Assembly: GCA_036388415.1 (NCBI GenBank)
Contig: DASVRW010000002.1
Coordinates: 1-64,000 of the forward strand
Direction of reading: 5' to 3'
DNA: 64,000 nucleotides
From: Candidatus Saccharimonadales bacterium
GTDB taxonomy: Bacteria; Patescibacteriota; Saccharimonadia; Saccharimonadales; UBA4665
Shown: piece after piece, positions 1-15,990 of the stretch
How the letters are laid out: each line of letters starts with the position of its first letter
Numbering within the stretch: position 1 is the stretch's first letter
Notes under the pieces: generated by a model
What the model was told of the DNA's origin: nothing
Databases searched by the model: none
The model's input: only the letters and a program-made list of their open reading frames with translations
Made by a program: the position numbers and the translations under genes

Positions 1-2543
1 ATCTCTACGTCACCATGAATATTGGTGGTACCACCCAAACAGCTACTCCGTCTTACGACGGTGAAATGAATCCTCGGCTCAGCCTCACCGCTGTGCCGTA
101 TGCCTTCCAGGCAGGACAGTTGGCGCAGTTTAATGGTACGACCAACTTTACGAGCAACCTGACTCTCGCTGCACCAACTGGTGGCAACCAGACCTTTGTG
201 GTGCAGGACCAGGGAGCGGCGGGGACGTATAATTTGTTGACACAGACGCAGGCAAATAGCAATTATCTACAGTTTGCGCCAGCAACTGTCCAGGCTGATG
301 CCAGTACGCGGACAACAATAAATATTAATAAAACGTCATTCGCCCCAATTATAGAATTTTCATATCAGTCAGTTGCTGTATGGAGTGTCGATGCCTTTGG
401 GCGGACAACAATCCGGCCGAGTACCGATAATGGTACTGCGTTTCGGGTATCGTCTCGGACAACCAATATAGATGTCCTGAGTGTCGACACCACTACGGAG
501 CAGGTGCAAGTCAGAAACCTGGTGAGTACTTCGGGTATAACAACCGGTGGTGCGCTGGTGTTTACTGGCACGAGTGGTACTTCTAACTTTGTTACACCGC
601 TTGGCGGCACGGTGCAGACAAAGATTAATATACCGTTACAAAATCCGGGCAATTTCGGCCAGCTTCTCGCTCTCGGCGTGCCAAGCACAGCTAGTGCGAC
701 GGCGCGCGTTATTAATGTATTCGACGCCAGGGCTGCTGGCCATCAGCCAAGTATAGCTGTCACGAGTCCTGACCAAAACCAAATTTTCGGACTCAGCTAT
801 GATGGCTCAAATACCACAGGTTACCTGATGAATAGTGCCGCCAGCATTCGACTGCAAGCAGGTGCAAGCAATATACTGACTGCAACCAGAGATTCTTCAA
901 CCCTAGGTACTGTTACAATCGGTGTAGGCGGTACCAATGCAGGCCGTCTGGAACTGGCTAATGCAACGAATAGCTTTGGCGTGTATCTGCAAGCCGGCGT
1001 TACCGCTGCCAGCTACGCACTGCAACTACCAACTGCCATTGGCGGCGCCGGCCAGTGTCTGACCATAGCATCTGTTGCCAGTACGACGGCGCAGCTCGGC
1101 TATTCTACATGTAATACAGCACCCGGCGTCTCACTACAAGCCAGTACGCCCGGTACTGCCGACACCGGCAATTTCAACATCTCTGGCAGAGGCATTGCCG
1201 CTACGCTACAGGGAACCACTAGTGTGCAGACATCACTGCTTGATACGGTCGGTGCCACTACTCTAAATATAGGTACAACTAATGCAACGCAGATTAATCT
1301 TGGTTCAGCTGTAATAAATACGAGCGTACTAGGTAACCTAGGTGTGGGTACAACAGCGACAAACCGCTTTAACGTCAACACTCCAACCACTGCCGTAACC
1401 GGTGCAGACGCAGTTATTACCGCCAGTTCGGCTACTAATGTCGGTCTTGTGATTCAGACTGCACCCAGCGCCACCAGTAACGCCTTCCAAGTTCGAAGTT
1501 CGGCTGGCGGTGTGCAGGCAGGTATAACTGGCAGTGGTCGCATATTTGCTGCCAGCACCGCACCAGTCGGTAATGCCGTATTGTCTGCATCAACCGGGTC
1601 GGCATCTAACTCGGGCATCGGCATTCTAGGTTCAGCGGGTCAAACTGCTAACCTAATTGACCTTAAAGATGTCAATAGCAACGTGAACGCTTCATTTGGA
1701 CCTCTCGGAAATCAGCTTACTCTCGGCCGGATTGCTGCGAGCGGCACCGTAACACAAGGTCAGATCGTCCTGTCGGACGGCACGACCAGTAATTTTGGGA
1801 TAACTTTACAGTCGGCCGCGCTGACTGCCAGCCGAACGATCATTTTGCCAAATGAAAGCGGCACAATACTGACTGACACGAGCGGTGTAAAATTGCAGGG
1901 ATTTACCCCAGGGACTGCTCAATCAGGTAGCCTCAATATCTCTGGTACGGCGATTGCGGGAACACTACAGGCCGGAACGACTACCAACGGCGTGAGCTTG
2001 TCGGCCACTGGTGTTGTCCTGACAGGTACGGCTCGGAATGCGCAGACAATTTTACTTACGGCTGAATATGCCGGTGCCGTACTAGATGCATCGGGGACAA
2101 ATAACACTGGCTCAATGACAAGCGGTTTCAATATGACGAACCGCATGAATTACTACAAATGGACTACGGCTCAGACTGGTGCGTCGCAGAGTTATGATGT
2201 CGTCACGCAAGTGCCAATACCATCAGACTTTAGTGCCTGGTCGGGCGGTGGGGAACCGTCGATATCTGTCAGCACGTATACGACAAATACGACTAACAGC
2301 AAACTGAGCATTGGAGTTCTTGACACGACCGGTGCCGCCACGAGCTGTGTTGCCGATGGCGGCACACCGACATTTATCACACCTGGTTCGACATCAACAT
2401 GGACTACAATGACACCGTCGTGCGGGACTGGCGGTACGTATACGGCGGGCGGATACATAACGCTCCGCGTGCGCATGACTGCCCAGAGCGGCAGCGTGGC
2501 GCAGGTCGGTAATATCACGCTGAATTATCTTAGTAAGTATTAG
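1..2543 (+). CDS. Giant beta-strand-repeat surface protein, 5' end outside the window
   Basis: The reading frame is open from the first bases of the window (codons for L-Y-V-T precede the first Met at 15), so this is the C-terminal part, at least 846 residues, of a larger protein. Near the start is a segment of the type MNPR-LSLTAVPYAFQAG, which resembles the module seen in phage tail fibres and large bacterial surface proteins. The rest is rich in Thr, Ser, Ala, Gly and Asn, is almost free of Lys, and suggests stacked beta strands. One unit (PGTA-GNFNISG-IAATLQ) recurs about 250 residues later as PGTAQSGSLNISGTAIAGTLQ, so internal duplication is visible. The C-terminal 150 residues look like a compact beta domain with two Cys pairs. 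It probably acts outside the cell in attachment. The exact family is not recognised. Confidence 0.8.
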   Translation, partial: LYVTMNIGGTTQTATPSYDGEMNPRLSLTAVPYAFQAGQLAQFNGTTNFTSNLTLAAPTGGNQTFVVQDQGAAGTYNLLTQTQANSNYLQFAPATVQADASTRTTININKTSFAPIIEFSYQSVAVWSVDAFGRTTIRPSTDNGTAFRVSSRTTNIDVLSVDTTTEQVQVRNLVSTSGITTGGALVFTGTSGTSNFVTPLGGTVQTKINIPLQNPGNFGQLLALGVPSTASATARVINVFDARAAGHQPSIAVTSPDQNQIFGLSYDGSNTTGYLMNSAASIRLQAGASNILTATRDSSTLGTVTIGVGGTNAGRLELANATNSFGVYLQAGVTAASYALQLPTAIGGAGQCLTIASVASTTAQLGYSTCNTAPGVSLQASTPGTADTGNFNISGRGIAATLQGTTSVQTSLLDTVGATTLNIGTTNATQINLGSAVINTSVLGNLGVGTTATNRFNVNTPTTAVTGADAVITASSATNVGLVIQTAPSATSNAFQVRSSAGGVQAGITGSGRIFAASTAPVGNAVLSASTGSASNSGIGILGSAGQTANLIDLKDVNSNVNASFGPLGNQLTLGRIAASGTVTQGQIVLSDGTTSNFGITLQSAALTASRTIILPNESGTILTDTSGVKLQGFTPGTAQSGSLNISGTAIAGTLQAGTTTNGVSLSATGVVLTGTARNAQTILLTAEYAGAVLDASGTNNTGSMTSGFNMTNRMNYYKWTTAQTGASQSYDVVTQVPIPSDFSAWSGGGEPSISVSTYTTNTTNSKLSIGVLDTTGAATSCVADGGTPTFITPGSTSTWTTMTPSCGTGGTYTAGGYITLRVRMTAQSGSVAQVGNITLNYLSKY

Positions 2544-2608
2544 TCACGCGTCAAGCACTGGGCGGAATCTGCATGGACGCGGCTGTACTACATCCGTCAA
2601 AGAGTTTA

Positions 2609-2617
2609 TGCTAAAAT
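2609..2617 (+). promoter_or_regulatory. Possible extended -10 promoter of the kelch-type gene
   Basis: TG-C-TAAAAT lies 28 nt before the ATG at 2646. I see no convincing -35 box, so this is a weak call. It would give the kelch-type gene its own transcript. Confidence 0.4.
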
Positions 2618-2645
2618 ATAGATACATCAGAAACTATACATACAG

Positions 2646-5600
2646 ATGAATACAAACTCGCACGCACGGAAAGTTACAAGGGTACTACAATCCGCTGGCC
2701 GCCACGCCGGCTATATCGGTCATGGCCGCTTGATACGACTCGGCATGGCGTCGCTAATACTTGTGACCGCCTTGGCTCCGGCGGTTATCGAAATACAAAC
2801 GCAGCGCTCGTATCTGCTCGATGCCGCTACTAGGAAGCTAGTCGGTACTACCAATCCAAATTTAGCTGATAAAATCTCCTACGACGCCCAAAACGGCCGG
2901 TGGCAATTCAACAAATCTGCCATCCCAGCTGATACTGGCACGAATCCTGCTTCTAATGTACCGGCTCCGGCGGCAGCTGCACTACAGGCGCAGATGGGCG
3001 GGGGAGGCAGTAAAGATACGAGCTTGTACGCTGTCAATATGCCTGTCGACGGCAAAAAAGGAATTGAATATTACGACGCCAACACTGATCTGTCATTTGG
3101 CCTGGTTCCGCAGTTCGCAGTCGGCCAGGGCATAGAGCGAAACGGGCAACTGATCTACGCCATGCCAGATGGCATGAAAATTGTTTATAGTGCCAAGAAC
3201 AATGGCATGAAGGAAGATATTGTATTGTCGCACAATATCGGCAACGATGTGCAGTTTGCATACAACATGGATTTGCCGGAAACGCTGGAAGCAAAGCTGG
3301 AGGCGGATGGTTCGATAGGCGTATACTCGGCTGACCCTGTGCTGTTTACCAACATTACCTTCGGCAGTGACGACGATCAAGCGAAGGTGGAACACGCCCG
3401 CAAAGTAGCCGCCAAAGACCATATGCTGTTTAATGTACCGGCTCCAGTTATTGTGCAGAGCGGTGACCGTACGCATGCTGCCAGCGCAAGATTTGAGCTC
3501 GACGGGGAAATACTGCACATCCGGGCAAGCGGTATGGACACACTGACATATCCTGTCAGCATAGATCCGACGGTGGTCGTGACCAGCTCCTCGGATTTTA
3601 CGGCTGGCAATAACGAGGGCAATGTCAGCTACCCTGCAGGACAAATTAGTCGTGGCACTCTATCGGGCGGTACGCTCGCGGCCTGGCCGGGCAGTCCGAC
3701 GAGCTACTATACGACGCCAAGAGACGGTAATAACGTTATCGCCTACAACGGCTATATGTATAATCTTACAGGCTACAGTAGTACGTATCTAAATGATGTC
3801 AGGTATGCAGCCATTAACACAAACGGTACTGTTAGTGCAACTTGGAGCGCTGCGACAGACGTACTGACGGCGCGCAGATACGGTAATGCCGTGACGTATA
3901 ACGGCTATATGTACCTCTTGGGAGGCCGGACGGCCAGCGGTGTTACGAATGCAGTCGAGTATGCCAAGATCAATAGTGACGGCACGCTCGGTACCTGGGC
4001 GGCCACTACGAGTTTTGCGACTGGCCGTGAGTTTGCCAGTGCAGATGTCTATAACGGCTATATATACATCAGTGGTGGAAACGACGGTACGAATGCTATG
4101 AGCGACGTGCAGTACGCCCCGCTCAATGCCGATGGTACCGTTGGAACATGGGCAGCAACTACGCCATTGCCTAGTGCGCGACATACCCTCACGACTAGCA
4201 TGTATAACGGCTATATGTATCTCGTCGGAGGAATGACGGACAGTACTACTGGTACGGCGACAACCTATTATGCCCGCGTTAATACCAATGGCACACTTGA
4301 TGCTTGGGCGGCGACCAGCAGTCTGCCAGCTGTTACCTTTAGAAACGGCATTATTGTCAGTGGAGGCTACATCTATACTTTTGGCGGTACATTTGCCCAT
4401 ACTAATACCGTTTACTATGCGCCGCTACTGGCAAATGGCGCAATTGGCAAATGGCAAACGACTAGTAGCTTTCTGACGGGACGACGTGAATCGGCTGCCG
4501 TTGCCTATAATGGCTACGTATATATTGTCGGTGGTATTCATCCTGCAACTGATCAGGCCTGTACGAACGCCGGCGTCAACACCACATATTGTTCGGACAT
4601 ACAATATACGTCAGCCAATGCCTCTGGTGTGCTCGGAAGCTTCAGTAATACTACCGTTCTGCCTACTACACTGACCCGGCTCGGAGGGACTGTATATAAT
4701 GGCTATATATATGCAGTCGGCGGCGCCACGGCCGCTAACTTCGGAAGTTCAACGACGCTTGTTCGGTATGCGCCATTAAATGCCGATGGCAGTATCGGCA
4801 CGTGGACGGTGCAGGGCACGAATAATCTGCCGGTAGCTACTCGCGATGTGACGCTGGTGGCCTACCGGGGAATAATGTATCAAGCGGATCCTGGCGTAAA
4901 CTACATGCGCTACGCGCCAATAAACAGTAATGGTAGTCTGGGAGGGTTTGTCAACGGCGTGCAGTACAAACCTCCGGGTCCAAACCGGTTTTTTGCCGCA
5001 TACGCGGCTTACAACGGCTATATGTACATGTCTGGCGGCTACGATAATACCGCTAGCTTAATCGAATACAAAGATGTGCAATATGCCAGGATCCAATCGG
5101 AAACCAATGGTTCGCTGGTGGAATGGCTGACGCTCGGCGACTTCAAAAATATAGGAATGCGGGCCCATCAAATGGTTGCAATTGGCGGCTATATGTATAT
5201 CATGGGGGGCATAAATGAGATTGATGGCGCAGAAAGACTTGTCTACTTTGCCGCTATCAACGCTGACGGTACGCTAGGCACCTGGAATCTGACCACATCC
5301 ATGTTAATAGACCGGTTTTACTATACTGCCGGTACATATAACGGCTATATATATGCAATTGGCGGCTCAACCGCTATTGGTCAAGCGCTCACGACCGAAT
5401 ATGCCAAACTCAACAGTGACGGCACTATAGGGTCATGGACTAATACTAATAGTTTGATCGCAGCTCGCAATTATCATGGAGGTGGCATATACAATGGCTA
5501 TGTCTATGCATTGGGAGGAACTAATTCTGGAGGCGCACAAATAAATACCACTGAGTACGCCTCACTCAATGCCGGCGGCTCCGGTATGATTGGTGCCTGG

Positions 5601-6971
5601 ACGACGTCGCCAGCTAGTATTACCACGGCACGGTCCGGCCACGGTACAATCGCCTACAAAGGCTATCTCTACGTACTGGGCGGCAAGAACAGTTCTAATG
5701 TTGCGCTGAGCGACGTGCAGTATGCACCTATCAATGGCATGGGAGTTGTCGGCGCTTGGACAACACTCAGCGGGGCGTCGCTACCGGTGGCGCTGTACGG
5801 CGCCGGATTTGCTGTCCGTAACGGCTATATATATGCAGCGCAGGGAACGAGTACATTTGTTGGTGCTAATCCAAGCGCAGGTACAAATGCATCGTATTAC
5901 GCCCGTGTCAACGCTGACGGTACGCTCGGCACCTGGCAGACGGGCACAGCCATGCTGGGAGATGATAATCCGGGCAATGGCCTGCATGACGGCAAACTGG
6001 CGGTATACAAATCATATCTCTACCATATCGGCGGTAGCTCTTGTACCGGTAACTGCCCGACCAGTCGCATCCAGTACGCCTCGATTGGTAGCGACGGCAG
6101 CATTGGCGCCTGGGCAGCGACAACTTCGCTGCCGGTCGCTACCGAGCAGATGCTAGCTTTTGCTGCCAATGGTTATCTCTATTCTATTGGAGGCTTGGAC
6201 GCCGTCGGTACCGTGCTGTCGAGTAGCTCGTTTATCGCCATAAACAGCGATGGCACACTGGACGCTACATGGAAAACGGCGCCGAGGTTGCCACTGGGCC
6301 GGTACGGTACTATTGGCGGCGTATCCAACGGCTATGTCTATGTGTCTGGCGGTTATGTCGGCCTGCCGTCTTCGGCGCTTACCAATATGACGTATTACGC
6401 CGAATTATTGCCCTTTGGCTATATCGGCTCATGGCGCATTTCGCCGTCTGTATTTACGAACCCGCGCCAAAATGCCGGTGGTGCGCTGCACGAGGGCTAC
6501 ATGCATATGACAGGAGGCTCTAATGCGTCAACGCAGTATGCGAGCGTCGAGAGTACTCCATTGTCGTCATCCGCCCGTGTCGCTAAATATTCAAAAGTTA
6601 TTGATCTCGGCGGGGATTATGCCTTGACGTCTCTATCGTACAACGGCTTGCTGGCGGATGGAGATGCCGCGGTGTCTGTGCGTACTGCCAATGGCAGCGG
6701 CGTGTTTGGATCGTCTCAATGGTTGTCAGATGTTGCCGCACAGGGCGCTTTGCCCGTTAACTGTATCAACAACGCTGCTGTGCGATACGTTATGGCAATA
6801 TTTGATATGGATGACAGTCAGGTCAGCTCAGTGATAGATACGACAGTGGCCAACGTTACCGATTTTACGGTGACATACAATCAGACTCGTGCCAGCCCGG
6901 ACATCAGGCTTCGCGGCGGTAAATTCTTCGCAACCGAGATTCAGCAGCCGCTTGATACTTGTAATCTATAG
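2646..6971 (+). CDS. Giant secreted kelch-type beta-propeller protein (1441 aa)
   Basis: A hydrophobic segment at about residues 32-50 follows a basic N-terminus, as in a signal anchor. Residues 60-310 form a leader domain. From about residue 340 to 1290 there are eighteen recognisable units of roughly 50 residues built on a YNGY(M/I/V)Y-x(2-3)-GG core followed by a (Y/F)A-x-(I/L)N-x-(D/N)G-(T/S)-(L/I)G-x-W turn. This is the pattern of kelch-type beta-propeller blades, enough for two or three propellers. A final domain of about 130 residues contains two Cys. There is no LPXTG-like tail and no C-terminal membrane segment, so the protein is released or held by the N-terminal anchor. It lies 100 bp after another giant surface protein. 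A role in adhesion or glycan binding on a host cell is inference. Confidence 0.82.
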   Translation: MNTNSHARKVTRVLQSAGRHAGYIGHGRLIRLGMASLILVTALAPAVIEIQTQRSYLLDAATRKLVGTTNPNLADKISYDAQNGRWQFNKSAIPADTGTNPASNVPAPAAAALQAQMGGGGSKDTSLYAVNMPVDGKKGIEYYDANTDLSFGLVPQFAVGQGIERNGQLIYAMPDGMKIVYSAKNNGMKEDIVLSHNIGNDVQFAYNMDLPETLEAKLEADGSIGVYSADPVLFTNITFGSDDDQAKVEHARKVAAKDHMLFNVPAPVIVQSGDRTHAASARFELDGEILHIRASGMDTLTYPVSIDPTVVVTSSSDFTAGNNEGNVSYPAGQISRGTLSGGTLAAWPGSPTSYYTTPRDGNNVIAYNGYMYNLTGYSSTYLNDVRYAAINTNGTVSATWSAATDVLTARRYGNAVTYNGYMYLLGGRTASGVTNAVEYAKINSDGTLGTWAATTSFATGREFASADVYNGYIYISGGNDGTNAMSDVQYAPLNADGTVGTWAATTPLPSARHTLTTSMYNGYMYLVGGMTDSTTGTATTYYARVNTNGTLDAWAATSSLPAVTFRNGIIVSGGYIYTFGGTFAHTNTVYYAPLLANGAIGKWQTTSSFLTGRRESAAVAYNGYVYIVGGIHPATDQACTNAGVNTTYCSDIQYTSANASGVLGSFSNTTVLPTTLTRLGGTVYNGYIYAVGGATAANFGSSTTLVRYAPLNADGSIGTWTVQGTNNLPVATRDVTLVAYRGIMYQADPGVNYMRYAPINSNGSLGGFVNGVQYKPPGPNRFFAAYAAYNGYMYMSGGYDNTASLIEYKDVQYARIQSETNGSLVEWLTLGDFKNIGMRAHQMVAIGGYMYIMGGINEIDGAERLVYFAAINADGTLGTWNLTTSMLIDRFYYTAGTYNGYIYAIGGSTAIGQALTTEYAKLNSDGTIGSWTNTNSLIAARNYHGGGIYNGYVYALGGTNSGGAQINTTEYASLNAGGSGMIGAWTTSPASITTARSGHGTIAYKGYLYVLGGKNSSNVALSDVQYAPINGMGVVGAWTTLSGASLPVALYGAGFAVRNGYIYAAQGTSTFVGANPSAGTNASYYARVNADGTLGTWQTGTAMLGDDNPGNGLHDGKLAVYKSYLYHIGGSSCTGNCPTSRIQYASIGSDGSIGAWAATTSLPVATEQMLAFAANGYLYSIGGLDAVGTVLSSSSFIAINSDGTLDATWKTAPRLPLGRYGTIGGVSNGYVYVSGGYVGLPSSALTNMTYYAELLPFGYIGSWRISPSVFTNPRQNAGGALHEGYMHMTGGSNASTQYASVESTPLSSSARVAKYSKVIDLGGDYALTSLSYNGLLADGDAAVSVRTANGSGVFGSSQWLSDVAAQGALPVNCINNAAVRYVMAIFDMDDSQVSSVIDTTVANVTDFTVTYNQTRASPDIRLRGGKFFATEIQQPLDTCNL

Positions 6972-7046
6972 GCCGCAGACTGCATCCAAATGCGTAGCCA
7001 TGAAATAGTCGAGATCGCAAAGCCTGCGGCCGCAGCCGATTCTAGA

Positions 7047-7075
7047 TTGGCGCCAAAAATAGCTAATGGTATACT
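7047..7075 (+). promoter_or_regulatory. Promoter of parA-parB
   Basis: TTGGCG at 7047-7052 and TATACT at 7070-7075 are separated by 17 bp, and TG one base before the -10 makes it an extended -10 box. The ATG of parA is at 7095, and GCAGGGA before it is a plausible ribosome binding site. Confidence 0.7.
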
Positions 7076-7094
7076 GTGAATTAAGCAGGGAACT

Positions 7095-7862
7095 ATGACA
7101 CCAAAAATAATCGCAGTTGCAAACCAAAAAGGCGGAGTGGGCAAAACAACCACCGCGGTTAATGTAGCCGCCTATCTGGCAGACAGCAAGCATCCGGTGC
7201 TGCTGGTAGATCTTGATCCACAGGGTAATGCCACCAGCGGCCTGGGGCTCGAAAAGGAAAGCACCGCGACGACCTACGAAGTGCTGCTCGGCTATGCAGA
7301 GCTGGCCGATGGTATCGCCGAAACGCACATAGACGGTCTGTATATCTTGCGGGCAAATCCAAATTTAGCCGCCGCCGAGCTGGAGCTGGGGCCACTCGAA
7401 AAGCGTGAATTCCGGCTGCAGCAAGCATTGCGTACGGCAGCATATGAATATATCGTTATTGATTGTCCACCGGCGCTTGGCCTGCTGACAATCAATGCCC
7501 TCACGGCCTCGACGCACGTATTTATACCAGTACAGACAGAGTATTATGCCCTCGAGGGCTTGGGGCAGTTGCTAGGTACAGTGCAACGAGTCCGCGAAGC
7601 AACGAATCCTCGGCTCGATCTGCTCGGTGTCGTCCTGACGATGTACGACAAGCGCACGTCGCTGTCGGAGCAAGTAAAGGCCGAGATCAAAACGCACTTT
7701 GGAGATAAACTTTTCGCAAGCGTCGTGCCGCGAAATATTCGGCTTGCAGAAGCGCCGAGCTTCGGGAAAACAATTTATGAACACGATAAATGGTCCAAGG
7801 GCGCACGGGCGTACAAACAGGTAGCAAAAGAAGTACAAAAACGAACAGGAGGAATTGGATAA
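7095..7862 (+). CDS. parA: ParA/Soj chromosome partitioning ATPase
   Basis: This is a deviant Walker-type ATPase of 255 residues, the usual length for chromosomal ParA/Soj. The Walker A motif KGGVGKTT is at residues 12-19. The A' motif VDLDPQGN at 38-45 carries the Mg-binding Asp. IDCPPALG near 122 is the Walker B region. Together with ParB it moves the replicated origin region. The stop codon overlaps the parB start in TAATG, so the two are translationally coupled. I found no palindromic parS site in the window, and the origin may lie outside it. Confidence 0.95.
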   Translation: MTPKIIAVANQKGGVGKTTTAVNVAAYLADSKHPVLLVDLDPQGNATSGLGLEKESTATTYEVLLGYAELADGIAETHIDGLYILRANPNLAAAELELGPLEKREFRLQQALRTAAYEYIVIDCPPALGLLTINALTASTHVFIPVQTEYYALEGLGQLLGTVQRVREATNPRLDLLGVVLTMYDKRTSLSEQVKAEIKTHFGDKLFASVVPRNIRLAEAPSFGKTIYEHDKWSKGARAYKQVAKEVQKRTGGIG

Positions 7863-8752
7863 TGGCGCTTGGCAAAATGGGCAAAATGACCGGACTCGGC
7901 AAGGGCTTTGATTCGCTGCTGCCGCAGAACTTCGATACCAGTATATTGCTGACGGACGACGACCGCATACAAAAGGTTGCTATCGCCAAGGTCGTGCCAA
8001 ATGCCAATCAGCCACGGACGCATTTCGATGATGAATTGTTGGCACAACTGGCTGATTCCATTAAACGCTACGGGATCCTACAGCCGCTCGTTGTTACACC
8101 GCTCGGTAGTGGTGAATACAGTATTATTGCCGGCGAACGCCGCTGGCGTGCTTCGCAACTAGCGGGTCTCGAGACGGTGCCGGTCATTGTTCGGACGACC
8201 AAAGAGCTCGAACAGCTCGAAATAGCCCTGATTGAGAATGTCCAGCGGGTTGATCTGTCGCCTATGGAGCAGGCGGTCTCTATCGAGCGGCTGCATCAGC
8301 AGTTCAACATGAATTATGACAAAATTGCCGAGCGCCTGGGCAAAGCGCCATCAACGATTAACAATACCGTCCGATTATTACAATTGCCGGCACCGGCCCG
8401 CGAAGCACTGCAGGACAAGCAGGTATCCGAAGGTCATGCCCGTGCTATTCTAGCGCTCAAGAAGCAGCCTGAGCTGCAGGCGGAACTTCTCCAGTTAATA
8501 CTTGCAGAAGGCTGGTCAGTACGCCAGGCAGAGCGCTTTGTAACCAGTCACAAAGACGGCGTGAAGGACAAAAAATCAGTCAAAGCCCGAGTGGAAACAG
8601 AGACGCCGCAAACCAAACAGTTATCAAAATACATTGGTGCGCCCGTGGCGATACGGCGTACGGCGAAGGGCGGGCGGCTGGAAGTCAGTTTTGCGTCTGA
8701 TGATGAGCTGGATCGACTCATTGAATTGCTTGAAAAACTTCGAAGCGAGTAA
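7862..8752 (+). CDS. parB: ParB/Spo0J partition protein
   Basis: The chosen ATG at 7862 overlaps the parA stop and follows AGGAGGAATTGG, which is a strong ribosome binding site. An in-frame upstream start inside parA was rejected. The 296-residue product has the ParB N-terminal CTPase fold with the box II motif GERRWRA near residue 95, a helix-turn-helix region (DKIAERLGKAPSTINN) near 155-170, and a C-terminal dimerisation segment. Family knowledge says it binds parS and clamps DNA using CTP. The neighbouring minus-strand gene converges on it with a gap of about 60 bp. Confidence 0.93.
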   Translation: MALGKMGKMTGLGKGFDSLLPQNFDTSILLTDDDRIQKVAIAKVVPNANQPRTHFDDELLAQLADSIKRYGILQPLVVTPLGSGEYSIIAGERRWRASQLAGLETVPVIVRTTKELEQLEIALIENVQRVDLSPMEQAVSIERLHQQFNMNYDKIAERLGKAPSTINNTVRLLQLPAPAREALQDKQVSEGHARAILALKKQPELQAELLQLILAEGWSVRQAERFVTSHKDGVKDKKSVKARVETETPQTKQLSKYIGAPVAIRRTAKGGRLEVSFASDDELDRLIELLEKLRSE

Positions 8753-8811: not shown

Positions 8812-10038
8812 TTAGGTTATACGCAGGGTAATTGGATTGCCGTTGTCTTCGTACACATTACCGGTCGTGGAAACATATTTGAAGCCGCTCGACAAGAAGG
8901 TAACTGTTGTATCGCCGCCAGATGCCTTATAGTACTGTCCGCGTCCGAATTTGTTGTTGGTAATAGAACCGATCGTGTTGCCAATTACGTCGCCCTTGGA
9001 AGCCATATTAAGCGTACCGCCGCCGCCGTCGCACCAGTTGGAGTCGAATATCAGGTTCGTTACCGGCCCGACGTTTTGGGTCACCTGCAGGACTGCGTTT
9101 GCGGTCACCGATGGATGGTAAACGTTGTAGCCACCTTGGGCATTTCTGTTGGTCGACGTATACTGGGTATCTCCAACCGTCGTCGAGAAGAAGCCCTGGA
9201 AGTTATTCCAGCGAATATCAGTGTTTGAGTTGCCTTGCAACTGAACACAGTCGTTATGTGTCTTTGATACGGGTGTATCACTGGCGTGATTTGGATCGGG
9301 AGAGTAATACGTCAGATCGTGCACGTAGTTAGCGTACAGCTTCACATTATTTGGAGCGCTTCGACTTGCAATGTTATAGATCCCGAATCCGTCGACGGTG
9401 TGGTAGACATTATTGCGCTGCGCCGTGTAGTCGTGACCGATCATACCATTCCACCAGACGGATGGATGGTCGGGTACCAGCAGGCAATCCTCGACGATGC
9501 AGTTCACGACTGCCGCATTGTTGCAGTCGACTAGCGCGCTGTTGTTGGCCAGCGTCGCATTGCCGCGTACCCGGCATTTGCGTATGGTTATATTTGCCGC
9601 TCGGATGACAATGCGGGCTGGTATGTCGAAGCCGCTGATGGTCACTCCGGCAGTTGCTAGCGTCAGTGTGCCGTTCACAATGGCTCCGAACTGGCCGCCG
9701 TAGGGTGTTAGTGTTATGCCGTATGGAGCATAGCCGGTCGTCGCAGATGACGGCTTGTAGCTCCCAGGTGTGGCTGGAACATAATGAGTAGTAGTAGTGT
9801 CCTGCCCGAATTTGATGGCTTTGTCGCCTGATGCTGCCGTATCAGAGACCACCGTTGCGCCATTTGTGGGTGTTCCGGTGTCCGGCTCGGTACTGACGAA
9901 TGGGGTAGCTGCATAGGATGAAAGCTCGCGGAGTAGTCCGGTAACACCGAATAGCGATACGCATGCTAGCCCAATAACTCCCAAAAATTCTTTGCGGGTT
10001 AGCTCTTTATCAAGTAGTCGTTGTAACTTTTTATTCAT
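8812..10038 (-). CDS. Secreted right-handed beta-helix (pectate-lyase-like) protein
   Basis: The start is placed at the ATG at 10038, giving 408 residues beginning MNKKLQRLLDKELTRKEFLG. That N-terminus, followed by a hydrophobic stretch to about residue 38, is a signal or anchor sequence. It recalls Tat signals (x-R-K-E-F-L) but lacks the twin arginine. Residues 130-370 contain short strands with N-x(2)-I/V-x-N-x repeats (ITIRKCRVRGN, VVNCIVEDC, DIRWNNFQG, NLIFDSNWCDGG), typical of parallel beta-helix proteins related to pectate lyases. No catalytic residues can be assigned, and a carbohydrate-active role is only a possibility. Seven or so Cys residues are unusually many for this window. Confidence 0.75.
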   Translation of the reverse strand: MNKKLQRLLDKELTRKEFLGVIGLACVSLFGVTGLLRELSSYAATPFVSTEPDTGTPTNGATVVSDTAASGDKAIKFGQDTTTTHYVPATPGSYKPSSATTGYAPYGITLTPYGGQFGAIVNGTLTLATAGVTISGFDIPARIVIRAANITIRKCRVRGNATLANNSALVDCNNAAVVNCIVEDCLLVPDHPSVWWNGMIGHDYTAQRNNVYHTVDGFGIYNIASRSAPNNVKLYANYVHDLTYYSPDPNHASDTPVSKTHNDCVQLQGNSNTDIRWNNFQGFFSTTVGDTQYTSTNRNAQGGYNVYHPSVTANAVLQVTQNVGPVTNLIFDSNWCDGGGGTLNMASKGDVIGNTIGSITNNKFGRGQYYKASGGDTTVTFLSSGFKYVSTTGNVYEDNGNPITLRIT

Positions 10039-10190
10039 ACCACTTATGATTAACCTATTAGTATATGCTAACACATTATGTAGCTGGCATACAGCTTAAA
10101 ATATTAACAAGCCTTATGTTTTGACAATTATTGCACAGCGGCCATAATTCAGTATCGTACAAACATTTTCTGTCCCCAGATCGGCCTGAT

Positions 10191-13780: not shown

Positions 13781-15133
13781 ATGGCTGAGGTGCCAACCAC
13801 ATCAACGAACGACGACAATAAAAATGCTGGCTCGGCTAATCCTGAGACTGTAGAGACAGCTGCGACGCACGCGGCCGCTATGGATGCGACACCACCATCG
13901 ACGAATCCTTCGACCGTATCGTCACGCCGCAGCTCGGGTGCACCGAGGAGTGATCGATCGCCAGATAGTCTGCGGCGCTTCAAATTCCTTCTCACCGCGC
14001 TCGTCCTGATAGTCAGTCTAGCGACTGGTTTTCTCGGAGGTTGGCTCGGTGCATCCGGCCGGCAAGACACTGCCATGCTGAATGGGACAACAGCCAGTCA
14101 GCGCAATCTGGCGGCAAGTGAAAGCCAGCTTATATCATCCATCGCCAAGACAGTCGGCCCAAGCGTAGTGTCTGTCAATGTCGTTAGCACGACATCAGCC
14201 GGTCCAACAGATTTCTTTGGATTTTCCGCACCGCCGCGGAGCCAGGAAGCCGCTGGCACCGGTATTATCATATCTTCTGACGGACTTATCATTACCAACC
14301 GGCACGTGGTACCGGCTGGGCTGACAAGCGTTAGCGTGACGCTGTCTGACGGCACTGAGTTCGAAGATGTCAAAGTTGTCGGCCGCACTGGTGAGAGCGA
14401 CAGTCTGGACATAGCCTTCCTGAAAATCTCCGACACCAAAGGCCAAAAGCTTGTCCCGGCCGAAATTGGTGATTCCGGCAAGGTCCAAGTCGGCGATATT
14501 GTCGTCGCTATTGGCAATGCGCTTGGCCAGTTCAATAACACCGTAACCTCTGGAATTATCTCCGGCTTCGGCAGGTCAGTCCAAGCTGGCGACGAATCTG
14601 GTTCATCCGTTGAAAATCTGAATGATCTATTCCAGACCGATGCAGCCATCAATCAGGGCAATTCCGGCGGCCCGCTCGTCAATAGCAGCGGTCAGGTCAT
14701 CGGTATTAATACCGCAGTATCGGGGCAGGGCCAAAACATCGGCTTCGCCATACCGATCAATGATGTGAATGGTCTGATCAAGCAGGTGCTCAAGAATGGA
14801 ACCTTCGAACGGTCATATCTAGGCGTCCGCTATATCCCACTGACACCGGGTGCCGCCAGAGAACTCGACCTTGATGTCACCAGCGGGGCTTATATCGCAC
14901 CGGCCGAGGAAGGCGGCCAGCCGTCAATCATTGAGGGCAGTCCAGCTGACAAAGCTGGACTAAAGGAAAAGGACATCATAACCGCTGTCGATGGAACGAA
15001 GCTTGATCAAAGCCGCAATCTGACGTCACTGGTTGGTCGCAAAGCGGTCGGTGAAACCACTAAGCTGACCGTAATCCGTGACGGTAAGACGATTTCTGTC
15101 AATGTAACGGTCGGCGCAGCTCCGCAGAGTTAG
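13781..15133 (+). CDS. HtrA/DegP-type membrane-anchored serine protease with PDZ domain
   Basis: The start at 13781 was chosen because GGGAGGAATCTGT lies directly before the ATG. An upstream in-frame start has nothing comparable. The 450-residue protein has a cytoplasmic Ser/Thr-rich tail, a membrane segment at about 73-96, a trypsin-like domain and a C-terminal PDZ domain. The triad is visible: His in TNRHVV, Asp in SLDIAFLKI, Ser in GNSGGPL. The PDZ domain covers about 350-440 (SYLGVRY ... GSPADKAGLKEKDII). It would degrade or refold damaged proteins outside the membrane. It converges with prmC, leaving only 14 bp between the two stop codons. Confidence 0.93.
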   Translation: MAEVPTTSTNDDNKNAGSANPETVETAATHAAAMDATPPSTNPSTVSSRRSSGAPRSDRSPDSLRRFKFLLTALVLIVSLATGFLGGWLGASGRQDTAMLNGTTASQRNLAASESQLISSIAKTVGPSVVSVNVVSTTSAGPTDFFGFSAPPRSQEAAGTGIIISSDGLIITNRHVVPAGLTSVSVTLSDGTEFEDVKVVGRTGESDSLDIAFLKISDTKGQKLVPAEIGDSGKVQVGDIVVAIGNALGQFNNTVTSGIISGFGRSVQAGDESGSSVENLNDLFQTDAAINQGNSGGPLVNSSGQVIGINTAVSGQGQNIGFAIPINDVNGLIKQVLKNGTFERSYLGVRYIPLTPGAARELDLDVTSGAYIAPAEEGGQPSIIEGSPADKAGLKEKDIITAVDGTKLDQSRNLTSLVGRKAVGETTKLTVIRDGKTISVNVTVGAAPQS

Positions 15134-15147
15134 GCTACGTGCGTTCT

Positions 15148-15990
15148 TCAGTTGGCTGCAAACACTTGAATAAAGTCATCAGTCATACTGACATCATACC
15201 CGTATCGCGCTGCCAAAACTGACAGCGCCGCATGTTGGGCGGGCAGCGACTCAGTGATAATGTGGTTTGGCTGCCATTCGCGCTGCTGTAGCTGTTTGAA
15301 CAATGCACGGTAGTGATCCAGACCGTCGCTGCCCCCAAAGATAGCCAGCTTTGGTTCTCGCGTTGCTGCCTGATTGATATGAAACGTGTCAGGTACGTAG
15401 GGCAGGTTGCAGAGCAAAACTACTGGATCAGGCCGCTGATTATCAAGTGGTGCAAGCAAATCGCCCGTCAAAAATGTTATCTCAGCCTGCATACGGTCGG
15501 CATTTTGCTGGGCAAGCCTTACGCAGGCCGGGTCGATATCAATTGCCGTTACGTCAGACATTGGCAGCTCCAGCTTGGCGGTGATGGCCAGTGCGCCGGA
15601 ACCAGTGCCAACATCAATAATCGAGACAGGATTTACCGGTAGACTGCAGCCAGTGTAGGCGGCAGCATACAGCTTTTTGAGCACTTCTATGATAGTTTCA
15701 GACTCTGGGCGCGGTTCGAGCGCATTTTTATTAACTTCAAAATCTCGACCGTAAAACTCGGTTTTACCCCTGATGTAGGCTAGTGGTTCGTGCCCGCAGC
15801 GCCGCTTAATTTGTTCGTCGAGTACAGCAATGTGTTCAGCTGTCAGCTCAGTTTCTGGATAAGCCAGTATTGTTGCTCGGTCTGCACTCAGGCAGTCTTC
15901 GAGTAGTACTAGGGCATCCAACCGGGCCGTTTCAATACCAGCGGCACGCAGGCTCGCAGTTGTCGATTTGAGCCAGGCATCTGTCGTCAT
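15148..15990 (-). CDS. prmC: Peptide chain release factor N5-glutamine methyltransferase
   Basis: PrmC methylates the Gln of the GGQ motif in release factors, and prfA follows upstream on the same strand. The 280-residue protein has the PrmC N-terminal helical domain and a Rossmann methyltransferase domain with IDVGTGSGALAI (motif I) near 115. The motif normally written NPPY reads CNLPYVP here, about residue 185: Asn, Pro and Tyr are kept but the first Pro is Leu. Downstream conserved ATREPKLAIFGG-DGLDHYR supports the family. The ATG at 15990 is chosen over one two codons upstream because an extended -10 box (TGG-TAAAAT) ends exactly 7 nt before it. Confidence 0.9.
   Translation of the reverse strand: MTTDAWLKSTTASLRAAGIETARLDALVLLEDCLSADRATILAYPETELTAEHIAVLDEQIKRRCGHEPLAYIRGKTEFYGRDFEVNKNALEPRPESETIIEVLKKLYAAAYTGCSLPVNPVSIIDVGTGSGALAITAKLELPMSDVTAIDIDPACVRLAQQNADRMQAEITFLTGDLLAPLDNQRPDPVVLLCNLPYVPDTFHINQAATREPKLAIFGGSDGLDHYRALFKQLQQREWQPNHIITESLPAQHAALSVLAARYGYDVSMTDDFIQVFAAN

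Follow-up and report, generated by a model that had tools for sequence, protein, structure and literature searches.

The window, by which we mean the whole analysed stretch of 64 kb at the start of contig C2 (1,100,649 bp) of a 1.14-Mb genome in two contigs, begins with two large genes in tandem, A and K. Together with a third gene, C, which follows K in most related loci, we are inclined to read them as encoding a membrane-anchored adhesion apparatus of the cell surface, whose most likely function is attachment to a host. In its favour are the order of the genes, an architecture that is conserved, the probable anchoring of K, and glycan-type domains in several A proteins. K contains 18 kelch blades, which most likely form three six-bladed propellers. 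The features are as follows.

3..2543, + strand: gene A, its C-terminal 846 codons, fibre-like and probably secreted; the frame runs off the contig start and the 5' end is on contig C1
57..110, + strand: GEMNPRLSLTAVPYA module of A, common to its paralogue and to some relatives' A proteins (motif reading)
1926..2537, + strand: beta domain at the C-terminus of A, conserved (alignment A5; A5 profile)
2646..6971, + strand: gene K, probably membrane-anchored kelch protein of 1441 aa (ORF, kelch families, blade reading)
2742..2795, + strand: hydrophobic stretch of K (aa 33-50) behind a basic N-terminus, perhaps a membrane anchor that is not cleaved (hydropathy; non-cleavage judged by eye)
2796..3632, + strand: N-terminal domain of K, aa 51-329, conserved and supersandwich-like in the model (alignments A4/A7; AF2; structure comparison)
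3633..3734, + strand: N-terminal half blade (closing strand) preceding blade 1, aa 330-363 (sequence GTLSGGTLAAW... read)
3735..4622, + strand: putative propeller 1, blades 1-6, aa 364-659 (model superposes on KLHL12/KEAP1 kelch domains)
4623..5579, + strand: putative propeller 2, blades 7-12, about aa 660-978 (blade register; by elimination between propellers 1 and 3)
5580..6569, + strand: putative propeller 3, blades 13-18, about aa 979-1308 (model superposes on NS1-BP kelch)
6570..6968, + strand: C-terminal beta-rich tail of K ending in an RLR-G-K-F...QPLDT motif (motif; low model confidence)
7095..7862, + strand: parA, immediately 3' of K, a neighbour outside the system (AAA_31 E 2.3e-56, CbiA E 7.1e-30)
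7790..8752, + strand: parB, a neighbour (ParB_N E 1.3e-33)
8812..10074, - strand, and L040:4095-5165, 5171-6208, 6678-7628 and L041:13308-14708: proteins of the 'AATPxVxxEPExG' type (by eye)

The two ORFs (846 and 1441 aa, separated by 102 nt) add up to 2287 aa, in agreement with the more than 2,280 residues that a preliminary description gave for a tandem of giant proteins, although A is cut by the contig start and, as judged from its paralogue, lacks about 129 codons. The same description counted about eighteen kelch-type blades in K. We recognise 17 blades with a motif, one of them degenerate, and a degenerate eighteenth, and the kelch assignment is supported by Kelch_1 (E 4e-19, 68.2 bits against a cut-off of 20.1) and by the KLHDC2-type kelch family (E 2.9e-30, 105.7 bits against a cut-off of 50). 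The kelch part was also matched by one PHROG that has no assigned function (E 6.9e-15). The 14-mer that had been seen to recur in the blades at the DNA level, AACGGCTATATGTA, codes for the N-G-Y-M-Y core of the blade and is present in four exact copies, and in 10 copies within two mismatches compared to 0.39 expected. K also has a hydrophobic segment close to its N-terminus, and by hydropathy such a segment is found within the first 150 aa in 59 of 62 K proteins. K is thus probably anchored in the membrane and probably faces outward, which is the form in which the earlier assumption of secreted or surface proteins can be kept. The tail motif was found by pattern in 38 of 54 K proteins and by eye in four more. 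Some K genes are considerably longer (1850-2600 aa; L057, L058, L067, L071-L073, and others) and contain insertions of about 300 aa in blade 1, sometimes in a later blade, that are partly glycine-rich; in the two long proteins that were scanned Pfam named kelch families only.

The grouping of the 18 blades into three propellers is based on the AlphaFold model, the six-blade periodicity, the existence of six-blade kelch proteins in related genomes, and the blade counts of the homologues. In the AF2 model of K 250-1441 (pLDDT 76, pTM 0.63), residues 119-410 (K 368-659) superpose on the KLHL12 and KEAP1 kelch domains with Z about 34 and rmsd 1.7-2.0, and residues 739-1059 (K 988-1308) on the kelch domain of NS1-BP with Z 36.8 and rmsd 2.2 over 281 residues. 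Structure prediction, which had been suggested as a check on the blades, therefore yields the closed six-bladed fold for two of the three thirds of K, as a predicted model. The middle propeller has no separate match among the 50 structural matches listed, and the borders between the propellers are not clean in the model because many matches span model residues from about 346 to 1035 while only about 265 residues are aligned. These unclean borders, and the lack of any linker at blades 6/7 or 12/13, would be compatible with 18 blades that close as one giant ring or as two nine-bladed rings, and the sequence alone would permit such rings. We nevertheless consider them highly improbable, because the model fits six-bladed domains over two separate thirds, and because index-specific blade profiles, built from the 39 relatives in which the program itself called 18 blades, resemble each other most at offsets 6 and 12 (p=0.0007 by permutation, with seven offset sets tested) but show no excess likeness at offset 9 (p=0.94). 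The period of six appears only in these index-specific profiles, whereas blade identity within single proteins is nearly flat across offsets in the window K and the 39 relatives. Against larger rings stand also the 12-blade members of the family and the other kelch frames examined in related genomes, five of seven of which have exactly six blades (two of the five run off their stretch). One of the remaining frames (3344 aa) has blade groups of 6, 6, 6, 6, and 5 with linkers between them, and the other, its start cut by a contig end, has 17 blades. Three six-bladed propellers thus remain the most likely arrangement.

It had been proposed that recombination between the short DNA repeats could change the number of blades. 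Our comparison, which is one between species, contradicts this. It comprises 62 K-type ORFs with the N-terminal domain, namely the window and 61 fetched stretches that are a chosen subset of the profile matches, and contains near-copies (L088/L089 and L073/L075). Nine of the 62 ORFs were left out as incomplete, eight because they run off the stretch (one of which still shows 18 blades) and one because it is truncated. Among the 53 complete genes, the window included, 48 have 18 blades, four have 12, and one has 17. The program itself called 18 blades in 39 of the 48, and the other nine (the window, L104, L076, L080, L086, L097, L048, L049, and L090) were raised from 17 after reading the sequence, the added blade being degenerate in L048 and L049. 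Some relatives have gaps of about 115 aa, each of which was counted as one blade plus an insertion, by reading in L088 and L095 and by analogy in the others. Within the genus of the window, seven complete K genes, including both copies of this genome, have 18 blades and one has 12. On the K tree a minimum of two changes between 12 and 18 is needed if the 17-blade gene is counted with the 18s.

For a blade number that varies by recombination one could point to the short repeats in the window K, whose longest exact internal repeat has 19 nt, and to the exact internal repeats of 62-114 nt that are present in seven of the 62 K genes, the longest of them in the 17-blade member. Of these seven genes two are incomplete, one is the 17-blade gene, and four are complete with repeats of 62-104 nt and still have 18 (L042, L094) or 12 blades (L098, L105). 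As all but one of the 53 complete genes have 18 or 12 blades, and the tree needs only two changes, we give very little credence to a variable number. The four repeat-rich genes indicate that homogenisation of the blades is compatible with a number that remains a multiple of six, and the retention of 18 or 12 blades despite homogenisation of the DNA in some genes would suggest that selection acts on the propeller as a whole. The sole departure, L047:4636-9228, has some nearly identical blades and a 114-nt exact repeat; its 17 blades might reflect a recent duplication or loss of a blade, or a collapse or artefact of the assembly. The preliminary description had named a constant blade number combined with a lack of surface exposure as evidence against its own reading. 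The number is indeed nearly constant between species, but the sequence does not point to a lack of surface exposure.

The N-terminal domain of K belongs to no Pfam or NCBIfam family, and the scan of 15 relatives gave only chance-level Pfam matches apart from the attached kelch start. When the profile of these relatives was compared to the sequences of the PDB, the best 60 of 95 matched sequences were aligned best in the kelch part, which begins at profile position 322. The domain was modelled with AF2 from 60 sequences (pLDDT 86, pTM 0.82). The best structural matches of the model are two lysosomal membrane proteins with Z 11.9 and 11.1, the top one being GLMP (6nyq, rmsd 3.7 over 181), and 3mwx is matched with Z 10.6 and rmsd 3.3 over 170. 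The lysosomal proteins are followed by lyases, hydrolases, and mutarotases at Z 9-11, with rmsd mostly 3-5 A and at most 13% identity. In a Foldseek search the model had no match below E 0.001, the best being E 1.8e-3. The modelled domain therefore weakly resembles the supersandwich domains of carbohydrate enzymes, which is a likeness in fold and not membership. Across the 60 domains seven charged residues are nearly invariant (D105, K150, E151, D152, D205, K218, and D268 in aligned window numbering), and these could be either catalytic or structural. A phage origin of K was considered but found no support, the domain having no match in 50,697 phage records or in viral contigs, which are incomplete libraries.

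The N-terminal domain of K is present in 66 of the 294 genomes that were sampled from the order, and a sample of 286 genomes from the phylum gave 14 matches to it, the window's own genome being included in both. Seven of the 14 matches are strong and come from the same order or class, and the other seven, outside the class, are weak (E 1.7e-7 to 1.5e-4). All seven related loci with named records derive from Saccharibacteria or Saccharimonadia MAGs, which bears out the Saccharibacteria setting in which the genes had been placed. Present in less than a quarter of the genomes sampled from the order, the N-terminal domain is not a universal attachment factor.

The C-terminal domain of A (A5 profile) has a similar spread, with 74 of 294 genomes of the order, the own one included. 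It has no Pfam match in the window member, and among 15 members the best Pfam match reaches no more than E 0.013. The GEMNPRLSLTAVPYA motif is present in six of 15 listed A sequences, a set in which many lack their start. The tail-fibre-like module that had been assigned to A was a label given by appearance, and searches of Pfam, PHROGs, and NCBIfam, which are incomplete libraries, found no tail-fibre family in the window A. The A paralogue reached 17.9 bits against a cut-off of 300 in NCBIfam, which we take as chance. A hydrophobic N-terminal segment was found in 25 of the 27 A proteins examined. Of ten A-type proteins from fetched loci that were scanned singly, five have CBM_4_9 above the curated cut-off, among them the A protein of a second A-K-C set in the window's genome, and one more has it below. 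The window A and its paralogue contain no recognised carbohydrate-binding domain, and the window A has no Pfam match at all. The A protein of another genome (G004, L042:14481-19337) contains six FG-GAP stretches (E 1.4e-48), so that the partner of K probably has a propeller of another kind there. The kelch regions of L107, L109, L111, and L050 lie in giant proteins of fibre-like appearance; a reading of these as A-K fusions was abandoned, since their frames gave no match to the A5 profile and none in a phmmer search with the A paralogue.

The missing start of A can be traced to the other contig. The end of contig C1 carries an A paralogue (C1:36039-39584, 1181 aa, corresponding to L040:14301-17846), a gene of the GH71 family, and finally the beginning of A. 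Over 162 nt this contig end shares 93.2% identity with the start of the paralogue, and over 237 nt the start of the window shares 83.1% identity with an inner part of the paralogue. From the alignment of both contig ends to the paralogue, about 256 nt of A are absent between the contigs, and the break of the assembly would accordingly fall inside a repeated gene, between similar copies of A. Because a 16S rRNA gene is found at the end of contig C2, and a 23S followed by a 5S rRNA gene at the beginning of contig C1, the two contigs probably close one circle, and we infer the gene order A2 - GH71 - A - K - parA - parB. The GH71 protein (L040:17912-19513, E 3.3e-33) has, by eye, a signal-like N-terminus. 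GH71 is an alpha-1,3-glucanase family, and a gene of this kind with a copy of A on either side may be a clue to the targeted glycan. Beyond parA and parB, a signal peptidase I gene is encoded on the opposite strand. The 'AATPxVxxEPExG' module, which follows a hydrophobic segment, is by eye common to several secreted-looking proteins that constitute a multi-copy family of this genome.

The neighbours of K include A, C, parAB, and others. In 43 of 62 loci K is preceded on its own strand by an A-type gene (A5 profile) at a distance of at most 6 kb, and in 36 of these by one within 200 nt; by a rough estimate, a single A at a random position of a 0.9-Mb genome would be found there in well under 1% of cases. 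C follows K in 31 of the 62 loci, all of which have A, and is thus present at 31 of the 43 loci with A and K, the window locus not being among them. These co-occurrence counts are not fully independent, as the profiles of A and C were built from genes adjoining K. At 19 of the 62 loci K has no A found, and several of these stretches end soon upstream. The K tree contains one clade of 38 K proteins (support 100/98) that are all linked to A and that include every K with C. The window K stands outside this clade and lacks C, but is placed beside an A-linked K (91/89). C itself has no Pfam match better than E 0.025 and contains a hydrophobic segment in 33 of 37 proteins matched by the profile. The linkage of parA, present at eight of 62 K loci, was rejected as a defining feature. 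Around the second A-K-C set of the genome we noticed a weak match to a WxL-interacting protein upstream (E 0.0016) and, downstream, genes of LytR_C type (E 5.8e-4, below cut-off) and of FtsA/PilM type (L039:2315-5637, 14113-15204).

Saccharibacteria are monoderm. In the mechanism that we propose, K would be a surface protein anchored in the membrane by its N-terminus, exposing a supersandwich-like domain and then three directly joined six-bladed kelch propellers. A, encoded just upstream, would be its long, secreted, fibre-like partner, and C, where it follows K, a third protein with a single membrane pass. We infer that the proteins are outside the cell and that they act together on a ligand of the host; A, K, and C would bind glycans or proteins of host or neighbouring cells. 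What they bind would depend on the propeller faces that are exposed and on the exchangeable binding domains of A, and not on the number of blades. It had been suggested that beta-propellers and fibre-like proteins mediate host attachment; the kelch propellers stand and attachment is the most likely function, but the tail-fibre part was a resemblance only. In a more specific and clearly more tentative version, to which we would give less than even confidence, A-K(-C) is a so far undescribed host-recognition apparatus of Saccharibacteria that consists of the fibre A, the triple propeller K, and the membrane adaptor C, and whose host range is tuned by exchanging binding modules or propeller faces on a fixed scaffold of three times six blades.

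Kelch propellers include enzymes, and they can also be internal scaffolds. K could therefore be a surface enzyme acting on polysaccharides of the host or the environment, similar to galactose oxidase, NanM, or a glycoside hydrolase, with A holding it to the substrate. The resemblance of the N-terminal domain model to domains of lyases, hydrolases, and mutarotases, and the GH71 gene between two copies of A, would agree with this, and the nearly invariant charged residues raise its probability slightly and lower that of adhesion slightly. However, the structural matches lie at 3-5 A rmsd with at most 13% identity, and the galactose-oxidase model Kelch_4 of Pfam reaches only E 0.15 in the window K (5.8e-4 in L071, also below cut-off), so that an enzyme seems unlikely to us. 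A structural role at the surface without host recognition, as a coat, in the cohesion of flocs or cells, or as a scaffold of the envelope, has a small but real chance. K is large, repetitive, and constant in its architecture, and one of the named relatives comes from a labscale reactor, but the patchy occurrence in the order would be unusual for a structural coat. The adhesion apparatus, which we still favour over both, has to accommodate that the two best structural matches of the N-terminal domain are lysosomal membrane proteins and not carbohydrate enzymes. Apart from type IV pili, little is established about the means by which episymbiotic Patescibacteria select a host and stay attached to it, and a conserved gene pair with a fixed and recognisable architecture provides specific genes to delete, express, and image.

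In the literature on kelch, beta-propeller, giant, or adhesin proteins of Saccharibacteria, Patescibacteria, and CPR none of the best-matching titles describes an A-K pair, nor is the pair named in the available text of three related studies (PMC10633639, PMC12206443, PMC8080830). In Ca. Southlakia epibionticum, proteins of the envelope that bear VCBS, dockerin, and Fn3 domains, and are thus of a glycan-binding type, are reported to be essential (PMC10633639), which speaks for the adhesion reading. The CPR predator Vampirococcus lugosii has giant membrane proteins that were proposed to act in host recognition; these are also very large and at the surface, but differ in their domains (WD40, PKD, and others), and the available part of the report mentions no A-K pair (PMC8080830). 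PilX2 of Nanosynbacter lyticus TM7x is a pilin with a beta-propeller that is needed for full host binding and is a proposed adhesin (PMC12206443). According to the text available to us, PilX2 is a minor pilin with one seven-bladed propeller of the RCC1 type, whereas K has another N-terminal domain and 18 kelch blades; K is composed of six-blade units, and an assignment to the seven-bladed propellers of PilY1/PilX2 type was discarded. A gene of the PilM/FtsA type is found near the second set in our genome. Mycoplasma genitalium P110/P140, in the accessible part of its description, works alike, as a pair of large adhesins in a membrane-anchored complex that binds host glycans (PMC6203739). It belongs to another organism, and the likeness to A-K would be one of function and is not drawn from sequence. 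Its propeller is reportedly of another type than kelch. The N-terminal domain of K weakly resembles, in the model, galactose mutarotase-like and GH and PL supersandwich domains in overall fold, at the distances given above. K is closest to the kelch beta-propellers of KEAP1/KLHL and NS1-BP (PF01344, PF24681) in the motif of the blades, in the six blades, and in the closing strand, which is apparently N-terminal. Unlike these, K would have three propellers fused behind a membrane anchor and a domain outside Pfam, in the setting of a bacterial surface.
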